Of a DNA stretch of 64,000 bases, positions 1 through 64,000 are shown piece after piece. The DNA lies in NCBI GenBank assembly GCA_963969365.1, contig OZ017755.1:1984001-2048000 (forward strand), given 5' to 3'. Position 1 is the first letter of the stretch. Every line of letters starts with the position of its first letter. The stretch is from Asterochloris sp. CNOR1. Its lineage: Eukaryota; Chlorophyta; Trebouxiophyceae; Trebouxiales; Trebouxiaceae. Below the pieces are notes generated by a model. That model had not been told where the DNA came from. It ran no database searches and saw only the letters and a program-made list of their open reading frames with translations. The position numbers were made by a program, and so were the translations under genes.

Positions 1-3000
1 AGCGGGCTGGTGTGGAAGGTTCGGCATAAGCCCACAGGGACGCTGCTGGTGCTCAAGGTAGGCAGCTACATTCATTGTCTGTGAAGCAGCCAGGCCCCTA
101 CAACTGCTGGTGCCTGCCGTGCCAGCAATGCTGCACGAGAGGCCATCCTCTGGCGTCCCTTTTGCACTGCAGCCCCTTCTGCGTGAGGGAAACTCACATG
201 GGGACCACCTGTCTTTGACCATCTGTCTACCTGGCCCCCAGGTGGTCAATGTCAACCAGCAGTCTGAGCAGATGAAGCGTCAGATTGACATGGAGCTGCG
301 CACCCTGTCAGGCACCAAGTCCCCTCACGTGGTGCCCTACCTGCACGCCTATGTCCAGGTGTGCGAGGTGTTGTGCTCTACTTTGGCACAAGATCTGCAA
401 GCGGCTTGATGCCCCTCAAATGCAGCACAGACAATCTCTGCAGGACGGCAACATTGCGATTGTGATGGAGTACATGGACGGAGGCCCCTTGTGTGGGCTG
501 ATCAGGCAGTGCGGGGTGCTGCGGGAGCCGGTGCTGGCAGAGGTGACGCGCCAGACGCTGCAGGTGGGCAAACCCGGCCCAACAGTCTCGGGGCAGTGCA
601 TGCCCAGGCCGGCAGCTGAGCTGTCGCAGTAGTGGGCCAGGGGATGGTACGGGGTTGCTGTGATAGCATCTGATTTGCATGCAGCTTACACCACCCCATT
701 TGATGCCTTGCCTTGGATGGATGGGTCTTTTGCAGGTTCAGCAGTTGGGCTCATGCCCTGAAAGCTTGGACCATGCATGGTCAAGTTGTGCAGCAGGAAG
801 TTCCATCACCTGTCAGCTTCCCCAGTCAGGCCCCTGTGCCGCTGCAGGGCCTGCAGTACCTGCACAGGCAGCGGGTGATGCACCGCGACATTAAGCCCTC
901 CAACCTGCTGCTGAGCACCTCGGGGCGCTGCAAGATTGGAGATTTTGGGGTCAGCAATCAGGTAGCTCCCACAGTGTCCTGACTCGCTTTACGTGCTGGC
1001 ACTGTCTCGCCTGCAGGTTGCCTCCCCTTCACTTTGCTGCGGCTGGACACATTCTGTGCACTCAAAGTGGCCTGCGCGGAGCTGTTATGGGCCATGTTGA
1101 CTTTCTTTTGCACACTGCCACCCTGCGCCTGCCGACAAGCTAGCATATTGCAGGACCCTGATTCGCGTGCTGAGTAGTGACCGAACACATTCTGTGCAGC
1201 TGGGCAACTCAGTATCCAAGTGCGTCACCTGGGTGGGCACTGTGACCTACATGGCCCCTGAGCGGATTGCCGGGGGGAATCAGGGGTACGGCCTGCCCTC
1301 AGACATCTGGTCGCTGGGGGTCACTGTCATGGAGTGCGCACTGGGCAGGTTTCCATACCAGGCTCAGGCAAGCATGCAGTGGGTATCTGCTTCAGGGCAG
1401 GTGGCGGCGCAACACTGCAACACACATACATGCCGTGCATCCAGCTATCACTGCATGGCCTGCCCCCTCGGCAGCTTCACCCGTCAGGCTCAGGGAGAGA
1501 GGGTGCACCACAGATGTACAAGATGCCAATGATGTTATGAGCTTGAAGTAAGCATCCTAGGTGGAGGCATGCAATCTTTGCTTCTCTCTGCAGCTTGCTG
1601 TGCTGACTGGAACGCCAGGCAGAGGTTGGCATGCACCTGCGTCATCTTTGGAATGCTTTGTGCAGGGCAGTGCAGGGCCAGGGCTCAAGTCCCAGCTGAG
1701 CTTCTGGGACCTGCTCAACCTCATTGTCGAGCAGGAGCCTCCTCAGCTGCATGAGCACAAGCACTCTAAGGAGCTCTGCCACTTTGTGGCCTGCTGCCTG
1801 CAAAAGGTGCGAGGCCGGCGCTGTCTGCATGACTGGTGTGACCAGCCAAATCCCACTCTGTCTCAGAAATTTTGAATGCACCTTATGTGCGGCTCTCAGC
1901 CGCTGCCCCTGCTGCTGTTGTGTGTTTGCTGCTTGCAATGTGTGCATCACTGCTGACTGCCAGTAAAGGCCTGCAAGGAGTCGGCAGGCTTCTCAACCTA
2001 TCACCCAGTGCTGATTGCCACTCCCCATGCTGCCGTCGTGTGCCCTTCAACAGGCCGCACCCCTGGATGCCAGACTTCAGAAAGGCACATTGGGTGGACT
2101 TCACCTGTTCAGCTCAACCACCTGCTTGCAGAATCCCAGCGACCGGTGGACTGCCAGCCAGCTGCTGGAGCACCCTTTCCTTCAGCAGCATGCCCCTTGC
2201 CCTGAGGAGCTGGCTAAGGTGGTGCGCGCACAGCAGCCTGCAGTCCCGCCTGCAGGGCTGGAGCCAGAGCTTGCCGCACCAGCTGCAGCACTGGGGGCTG
2301 CAGACGGTGCCCAGCCGCCCTCTGCTGGTGCTGCTGCTTCAGCCCCCAAGGTGCACAGCAGAGCCGCCGCTGCTGCTGGACCGCAGGCTGCTGCAAACAA
2401 GGTGCTCAGCAGTGCAGCTGCTACTGGGCTGCAGGGTGCTGCAGCCACGTGGGCTGTGCACAGAGCTGCCCCTGAGGCTGCATGCTTTGCCGTCAAGCAG
2501 GCACGGCCCTCTGCTGTCACAGGCAGGGTGGCGCCTGGCCACCAGCCAATGCCTCTGCCAGAACGGAAGCCCGGTACAGCAGAGGCCTTGGAGCGGCTGC
2601 TAAACTATGCAGCAGACAACCTGCCTCGGCGTCAGGCACCTGCCAGCCTGCCAGCCCGCCAGTCGCCCCAAGCAGGGAGTGCCAAGCATGCCGACGCAGC
2701 GCTAACAGCCCAGTCGCCCCCCACACAGGCCCATCAGATTCCTGCACAGCCAGATGCCCAGCAGGGGTTGGTGGCGTCTCCCATTTCCAGAAGGCGCGTT
2801 CAGCTGCGGAGCAGCCCTGAGGGCATGGCTAGGGTGGCTGCCGCAGCAGGACCGAAGTCGGCGTGCAGGCAAGCCCAAAGTGCAGCATTGCAGCCTTTTG
2901 TGGATGCAGGTAGCAACGATGCCAGCCAGGTAGGCAGTTTGGGAAGCTGCCCGCTGCCTTGTGGATGCAGTGCTGACAATTTACACTAAAGGTTCCTAAG

Positions 3001-3112
3001 TGGCTTGCAGACCCAGGGTGCCCAGCATGTGTCTCCATCAGACCCAACAGGTGGCACGGCCAGCCCCCTCGGCAGTGACCAAAACCCAGCCTGTCGAGCT
3101 GATACACGTTGA
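1..3112 (+). CDS. MAP kinase kinase-like protein kinase (5' partial)
   Basis: Serine/threonine or dual-specificity kinase of the MAPKK type, expected to phosphorylate a MAP kinase in the cytosol. Exons that keep one frame are 1-57, 242-358, 444-563, 848-961, 1200-1367, 1666-1806, 2132-2929 and 3011-3112, giving 538 residues from the left edge. Visible motifs are the VLK lysine, HRDIKPSN catalytic loop, DFG, the activation loop with S-x5-T (the plant MAPKK spacing), YMAPER and SDIWSLGV. The kinase domain ends near [10 protein letters not shown]. After it comes a tail of about 250 residues rich in Ala, Gln and Pro that I do not recognise. The glycine loop start and initiator ATG lie left of the window. 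Intron 1368-1665 must use a GC donor (GCAAGC) to keep phase. MAPKK is preferred over other STE kinases because of the activation-loop pattern. Confidence 0.85.
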
Positions 3113-63671: not shown

Positions 63672-64000
63672 CTGCACTGCACAGGCTACAAGGAGTGGAC
63701 GACTGCAGACGGACCAGTGCCTGAAGAGATGCAGCCTACATGCAAGAATGGCCCCTTCATGCTGAGCACATGCCTGGCCAGTGTGTGGGCAACTACTTTG
63801 GCGAGGCATTTGCAGTGCAGGGCACATGCATCCATCTCATGCAGCGCCCTATGCGGCAGGCAGCCCCCAACAGATGGGTTTCGAATGGCCATGGTTCTCC
63901 TTACAATGAAGCCCCAAGAGTGTCACCATGCAGCATGGCGCGCCCTGACGGTCCTCAGCAGGGTGCTAGATCACACAAGATGTACAGCGTGCAGACTGCA
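63672..64000. other. Right edge, unassigned sequence upstream of the hexosaminidase exons
   Basis: About 330 bases that should contain an intron and perhaps an earlier exon of the GH20 gene. The minus strand has an ATG-led frame near 63892-63686, but it lacks the usual N-terminal hexosaminidase motifs. I cannot place a start codon or signal peptide. Confidence 0.35.

Follow-up and report, generated by a model that had tools for sequence, protein, structure and literature searches.

Tandem duplication is already well described as a source of introns. Internal gene duplication that is accompanied by the creation of introns was reportedly described by Gao and Lynch in 2009. Here, we describe introns of the green alga Asterochloris sp. 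CNOR1 that carry decayed copies of the edges of their neighbouring exons, as found in a stretch of 64,000 nucleotides (nt) of contig OZ017755.1 (the window; positions 1,984,001 to 2,048,000 of the forward strand, GenBank assembly GCA_963969365.1) and in five further blocks of the same genome. As cited in PMC4974935 and PMC3443670, that process resembles the present one, since short direct tandem duplications occur in genes, may cross exon-intron borders and leave intron sequence behind. The two differ in that the interest there lies in new introns, whereas here it is existing introns that are lengthened, and most copies are fossil remnants that are not accompanied by a new intron.

The other published systems are likewise compared on the basis of extracts. 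A tandem duplication across an intron-exon boundary has been reported for a potato RdRp gene (PMC4974935), so the statement in the first-pass annotation of the window that no system of this form had been described was too strong. The extracts of that report present one recent case with a new intron and an extra exon, whereas here copies are present in at least 83 of 484 introns, are mostly old and leave the exon apparently unchanged. In Rogers-type intron gain, a segment with AGGT is duplicated in tandem, the duplication supplies the splice signals and the duplicated exon piece turns into intron, as it does here (PMC3443670, PMC2891723). As presented in those extracts, the length of the intron equals the duplicated unit, whereas the lag between exon edge and copy equals the intron length in only two of 76 cases here, both possibly mis-predicted. 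Tandem repeats are dense in introns of Chlamydomonas and Volvox and lie near intron-exon junctions (PMC3887541), but they are short motifs with a proposed role in splicing, and the available passages of that paper do not describe exon-edge copies. The compact genomes of the core-Reinhardtinia exhibit median intron lengths of 198-343 bp without a peak at 60-110 bp (PMC8226300), which is similar to the median of 272 bp found here. The cause is left open in the extracts of that work, whereas a mutational route is described here for one genome, possibly of another group. Tandem exon duplication and mutually exclusive exons differ from the present copies, which exhibit neither coding constraint nor a maintained frame. 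In our literature search, no title or opening of an abstract mentioned decayed copies of exon edges as something common in introns or as a cause of intron length. The scale of the process and its link to intron length are apparently new, in that we did not find them in print.

The sample consists of 304 kb on six contigs of a 56.4-Mb genome with 21 contigs. The gene models are ab initio models from a purpose-written hidden Markov gene finder that was trained on 264 kb, namely the window and 50-kb blocks on contigs C1, C4, C7 and C13. A 40-kb block on the sixth contig (C2) was held out of the training. In the edge test, up to 80 nt of exon beside each junction were aligned to the neighbouring intron with a cut-off score of 75. 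The extension of edge copies was scored strictly and with a control.

Exon edges were found to match their own introns in excess of all controls. At a score of at least 75, matches were obtained for 33 of 397 acceptor edges and 43 of 395 donor edges in the 264 kb, against 52/7940 and 69/7900 in length-matched introns of other genes (0.65-0.87%; Fisher p 3e-22 for acceptors and 1e-28 for donors). The other introns of the same gene gave 29/2876 acceptor and 25/2842 donor matches, and the intron at the far side of the exon gave 3/336 and 6/336. When the own intron was reverse-complemented, only 5/397 acceptor and 4/395 donor edges matched (9/792 against 76/792 in direct orientation; p 5e-15), which is no excess over the approximately six expected at the other-gene rate. 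At a score of 95, matches remained in 34 of 792 own-intron comparisons and in none of 15,840 with introns of other genes. Chance and the shared splice consensus are excluded as explanations by the other-intron, reverse-complement and far-side-intron controls. With 45-nt pieces, the match rate is 8-10% at the junction and declines to near background 90-120 nt into the exon. At least one copy is present in 72 of 407 introns of the 264 kb, or about one sampled intron in six, and in 11 of 77 introns of the held-out block. The whole 304 kb contains 115 copies in 83 of 484 introns, with two or more copies in 20 introns.

The copies are direct and local, and they lie within the intron that adjoins their exon. 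The lag has a median of 150 bp, and the middle half of the values falls between 109 and 197 bp. The aligned span is not longer than the lag in 75 of 76 copies, the exception being a multi-copy array with a lag of 45. The copies decay as non-coding DNA. In 63 cases, the mismatch at codon positions 1, 2 and 3 is 0.166, 0.165 and 0.209, and 122 of 133 indels would shift the reading frame. Coding constraint on the copies is excluded by these frameshifts and by the nearly equal mismatch over codon positions. The lags show no preference for multiples of three (remainders of 1, 0 and 2 in 29, 24 and 23 cases). Identity is mostly 70-85%, with three of 49 strict cases at 0.90 or above and none at 0.95 or above.

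Among 146 non-redundant local repeats, pairs that join an acceptor junction to an intron are in threefold excess over random placement (27 vs 8.8 expected), and those that join a donor junction to an intron are in 1.6-fold excess (15 vs 9.1). Intron-intron pairs (47 vs 45.5) and exon-intron pairs with the junction outside the aligned part (31 vs 28.5) occur about as often as expected, and protein-altering exon-to-junction pairs are absent (0 vs 8.9). Two groups stand out among the lags of the local repeats, at 90-125 and 170-199 bp, and few lags fall at 150-169 bp. A nucleosome-like unit length is not claimed, as the second group possibly represents harmonics. The motifs CTGCAG, CAGCAG and CTGCTG occur at about 7-12 times the zero-order expectation on both strands of introns, exons and intergenic DNA. 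CTGCA or TGCAG is present in both copies of 73 of 146 repeats, compared with 52.9 of 146 random single segments. Nothing is concluded on a CTGCAG-specific process, as the motif is common everywhere in the sample.

Introns that carry a copy are longer than those that do not. The means are 458 and 277 bp (a difference of 181 bp; p 2e-14), and in the held-out block they are 475 and 254 bp, in agreement with the earlier proposal that introns grow in this way. Copies occur in 31 of 62 introns of at least 500 bp and in three of 93 introns shorter than 150 bp; long introns give more room for chance matches, and the other-gene control is matched for length. If the whole length difference is due to duplication, its share amounts to approximately 13 kb of approximately 127 kb of sampled intron. 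The two introns with a lag close to their length both lie in block C4 (intron 3 of gene g0 and intron 5 of gene g2; 88 and 98 nt long, with lags of 94 and 98). Both short introns are candidates for intron gain by tandem duplication, or else gene-model errors.

The features identified in the window are as follows.

6310 to 6371, forward strand: genuine start of an exon in the CPC1/SPEF2-like gene W2, with two copies in the preceding intron (5828-6309)
6144 to 6205, forward strand: decayed copy of the exon start at 6310, 78% identity, AG kept
5979 to 6036, forward strand: second decayed copy of the exon start at 6310, 84% identity
7688 to 7747, forward strand: true exon end of W2, with copies at 7865-7922, 7988-8038 and 8096-8146 in the intron at 7748-8357; junction consistent with CPC1
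11113 to 11189, forward strand: true exon end of W2, whose decayed copy (74%) lies at 11293-11368; CPC1 agrees with the donor at 11192
15871 to 15934, forward strand: decayed copy of the exon start at 15991, 78% identity, CTGCAG kept, similarity extending 38 nt into the intron
18298 to 18350, forward strand: decayed copy of the exon start at 18503, 74% identity, lag 205
18777 to 18832, forward strand: decayed copy of the exon end at 18607-18668, 79% identity; another copy at 18901-18960 (71%)
26034 to 26627, reverse strand: four-copy array, all copies decayed, in the 5'-nucleotidase-like gene W4, from the source exon end at 26712-26790, with a period of about 165-183 bp
26545-26627, 26371-26423, 26199-26226 and 26034-26060, reverse strand: members of the W4 array, in the intron at 26034-26711
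28163 to 28336, no strand: tandem duplication within an intron, two units of 87 bp with 87% identity over 82 nt
31417 to 31558, no strand: 25-bp array of 5.3 copies, each unit with an acceptor-like TGCAG core, before the predicted acceptor at 31566
36024 to 36218, no strand: intron-internal tandem duplication of about 95 bp in W7
37395 to 37451, forward strand: decayed copy of the exon start at 37647 in the POT1-like gene W7, 73% identity
41215 to 41389, reverse strand: decayed copies at 41215-41273 and 41326-41389 in gene W8, from the source exon start at 41119-41184
44018 to 44052, reverse strand: copy of the exon start at 43718-43753 in gene W9, 92% identity over 35 nt; a weaker one at 43893-43939
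55887 to 55953, forward strand: true exon end of the sucrose-phosphatase-like gene W13, with copies downstream at 56085-56149 (77%) and 56001-56056 (71%)
61985 to 62033, reverse strand: decayed copy of the exon start at 61843-61891 in the GH20 hexosaminidase-like gene W14, 82% identity
61612 to 61660, reverse strand: decayed copy of the end part (61713-61761) of that W14 exon, 76% identity; donor outside the aligned part

The intron of W13 also contains four weaker copies of the start of the next exon, and the W8 copies belong to a longer array with a spacing of about 84-110 bp. The predicted exons of 6-12 nt are doubtful, including those of 6 nt at 18961 and of 12 nt at 26022-26033.

The first-pass annotation had described such exon-edge copies from the letters of the window, and the phenomenon is real, although it was overstated in places. 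Copies had been reported in at least nine of eleven genes; at a score of at least 75, they are present in 10 of 15 window gene models and in 31 of 102 window introns. Regular series do occur, among them the 25-bp array and a series of about 94 bp at 35936, 36029 and 36123, both inside predicted introns, and the four donor-side copies of W4, whose lags to the exon edge are about 167, 343, 526 and 691. Further series are those of W2 before the exon start at 6310 and after the donor at 7747. It had stated that the copies always include the acceptor or donor, and this does not hold: only 49 of 76 significant copies align to within 6 nt of the junction, and the strictly aligned span reaches at least 2 nt into the intron in 37 of 76. 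Decay may have removed the junction part in some of the repeats without an aligned junction. A comparison with shuffled sequence confirms the local repeats: 104 ungapped ones (lags 20-600, score at least 75) were found in the window and 0, 0 and 0 in three local shuffles. Five distant lag ranges of similar width (lags 601-25,580) gave 6, 5, 2, 1 and 2 repeats in the window, and the other 50-kb blocks contain 19, 35, 53 and 20 local repeats against 0-6 at three distant lag ranges. The idea of local duplication across exon-intron borders, after which one copy stays exon and the rest become intron, is supported by what is seen on five of six contigs. A genome-wide process had also been suggested. 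The copies are clear on five of the six sampled contigs, but C13 is near chance and the sample covers only 304 kb of the 56.4 Mb.

The gene finder converged on a donor near CAG/GTGAGC and an acceptor of CTGCAG/G (the slash marks the junction). In the 264 kb, it modelled 68 genes with 407 introns and a median exon of 146 bp. Internal stops as translated are present in two of 68 models, one of which is W14, which is cut by the window end and whose exons match Pfam Glyco_hydro_20 in the right frame. Pfam S6PP covers residues 8-268 of 272 of the spliced W13 model, and the Pfam match of the MAM33 model covers residues 65-244 of 246. No Pfam match was found for two of the eight predicted proteins tested. 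The CPC1 chain of PDB entry 7n6g, which we take to be the Chlamydomonas protein, aligns to 772 residues of W2 (E 1.7e-93), and several W2 junctions are confirmed by this alignment. Chlamydomonas CPC1 aligns across the junctions 5827/6310 and 7747/8358 without extra residues; therefore, the exon start at 6310 is represented only once in the mature protein. The other gene products of the window include TIM21, MAM33, a 5'-nucleotidase C-terminal domain, POT1, a protein kinase, CH_2, Cupin_8/JmjC and GH20. A tandem repeat of 12/24 bp is present at 63581-63646 within a predicted coding exon upstream of the GH20 domain.

Local tandem duplication of DNA, sometimes iterated, that spans splice junctions and leaves a spare copy to decay while introns lengthen is, in our judgement, very probably the cause of these copies. 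Short stretches of DNA would be duplicated head to tail in place, at times repeatedly. A duplication within a coding exon would change the protein and be removed, whereas one within an intron would be tolerated. A unit that straddles a splice junction would yield two copies of that junction, and the protein would not be altered provided that splicing uses the exon-preserving site, which is the first donor or the last acceptor; the DNA between would become intron. The spare exon edge would decay free of constraint, and the intron would lengthen by about one unit per event. The exon part would remain recognisable longest because selection keeps its partner while both copies of the intron part drift, so that exon edges would act as fixed references that reveal old duplications. 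We infer this choice of splice site and this order of events.

Similarity is high in the exon part of the alignments and low in the intron part, and it often ends within about 10 nt of the junction; one case in C1 comprises 68 exon and 6 intron nt. This would suit a copying of the exon edge and its splice signal alone, by an RNA-templated or transposition-like route, which we nevertheless regard as quite unlikely. The likeness of the intron flank exceeds the control at 0-12, 12-30, 30-50 and 75-100 nt (p 0.001, 1e-4, 0.016 and 0.01), with an identity of 0.517 against 0.467 at 12-30 nt and no excess at 50-75 nt (p 0.7). In several cases the similarity reaches 29-45 nt into the intron, and clear tandem arrays of full units are present at 28163-28336 and 41203-41394. 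Inserted copies would be free in orientation, whereas no reverse-complement excess is exhibited. In addition, a nearly identical profile was obtained from a simulation in which tandem duplications were placed across real junctions, the intron drifted, the exon was fixed and the same detection was applied. The simulated identities are 0.767/0.700/0.614/0.567/0.537 on the exon side (observed 0.761/0.725/0.613/0.515/0.482) and 0.553/0.518/0.502/0.494/0.485 on the intron side (observed 0.602/0.517/0.488/0.504/0.510), and the fit is good near the junction. The appearance of exon-edge-only copies is largely explained by detection bias, because selection holds one exon copy while both intron copies decay.

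It is likewise very improbable, single introns perhaps excepted, that the copies are working alternative splice sites or exon ends that serve regulation or protein variety. Some good sites are kept, as nine of 22 copied acceptors and nine of 27 copied donors reach the scores of the lowest-scoring tenth of true sites or better, which is no sign of preservation. Within 2 nt of the implied site, AG is still present in 15 of 22 strict acceptor copies and GT in 17 of 27 strict donor copies, probably about what drift would leave. Third codon positions are slightly more divergent than the other two (p 0.012), but synonymous substitutions in the true exon would be expected to produce such a small difference. 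Mismatch at positions 1 and 2 is nearly as high, the indels mostly break the frame and only 24 of 76 lags are multiples of three. Splice-like motifs show no sense-strand excess in intron interiors (TGCAGG 245 sense vs 267 antisense; donor-like AGGTGAG 7 vs 12), and the earlier suggestion that introns become filled with decoy sites fails on the same counts: introns are not filled with decoys beyond what base composition gives. Introner-like mobile elements or a shared composition of splice signals could be considered in view of the motifs that are abundant on both strands and of the acceptor itself, which contains CTGCAG. As the main cause, this explanation is refuted, and its probability is close to nil: the matches are specific to the own neighbouring intron, as the counts for introns of other genes at scores of 75 and 95 demonstrate, and 45-nt pieces from intron ends and middles match other introns of the 264 kb at a rate of at most 0.0002 at score 90. 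An assembly artefact has an equally negligible probability. False joins would produce near-identical copies, whereas these copies exhibit scattered substitutions and indels, with none of 49 at 95% or above, and are present on several contigs.

Several observations weigh against tandem duplication across junctions as a complete account. Many copies have an intron flank without recognisable similarity even when the exon identity exceeds 80%; therefore, the tandem structure is shown only for some. In 27 of 76 copies, more than 6 nt separate the junction from the start of the aligned part. Beyond 50 nt into the exon, the simulated identity (0.567, 0.537) exceeds the observed one (0.515, 0.482), so the real exon parts are somewhat shorter than assumed, and the simulated divergence (K 0.15-0.5) is the closest of five ranges tried. 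The acceptor edges of the held-out block, taken by themselves, give a weak signal (3/76; donor side 8/75). W2 has at least two extra predicted stretches relative to CPC1 (near 7043 and at 11627-11662), and as the models are ab initio, some predicted junctions are therefore misplaced. Young copies are scarce, although the simulated detection at K 0.01-0.15 is 78-87%. At the outer coding ends, copies were found at 0 of 64 start-codon and three of 74 stop-codon edges, compared with 87 of 943 intron edges (p 0.003 jointly; p 0.2 for the 3' ends alone), and intergenic-only pairs number six against 17.2 expected by random placement. Therefore, purely uniform duplication is insufficient. Either intergenic DNA is more constrained, or duplication is linked to transcription or splicing. 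Local repeats are two to five times more frequent in intron windows than in intergenic windows, an excess to be read with the fact that long introns are long partly through duplication.

The age fit gives zero weight to K of 0.15 or less and leaves the old end unconstrained, and intron-internal pairs reach 89% identity; therefore, a past wave of duplication is only suggested. The scarcity of young copies would be accounted for by any one of three causes: a past burst, the reversion of young identical copies or selection against young decoys. No close pair of paralogues for dating was found among the predicted proteins (E 1e-10), which contain one weak pair of 25.5% identity, and a scan of viral contigs found no relative.

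The share of introns with copies varies by region from 30% in the window (31/102) to 4% in C13 (chi-square p 2e-5), with 16/82 in C7, 17/77 in C4, 11/77 in C2 and 6/92 in C1. The two of 54 introns in C13 are indistinguishable from the approximately one expected by chance. In copy-rich regions, the introns without copies are longer as well (Spearman 0.81, n 6, p 0.05). All six regions are strongly depleted in CpG (observed/expected 0.36-0.40) and enriched in TpG (1.66-1.74), a pattern that cytosine methylation and decay would produce. It is conceivable, though we hold it rather doubtful, that junction-spanning and intron-internal duplication together are the main source of intron length, at a regional rate that is tied to transcription or splicing and in a past wave that has since slowed.

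Long algal introns without the usual short peak have been presented as an open question, at least in the extracts on the core-Reinhardtinia (PMC8226300), and a measurable route to such introns is described here. Because selection holds the exon partner, exon edges offer an internal measure of old intron duplications that could not be recognised by other means. The edge test needs only a genome and gene models and is applicable to other eukaryotes. If the past wave is true, exon edges would also date a burst of intron growth in this alga.

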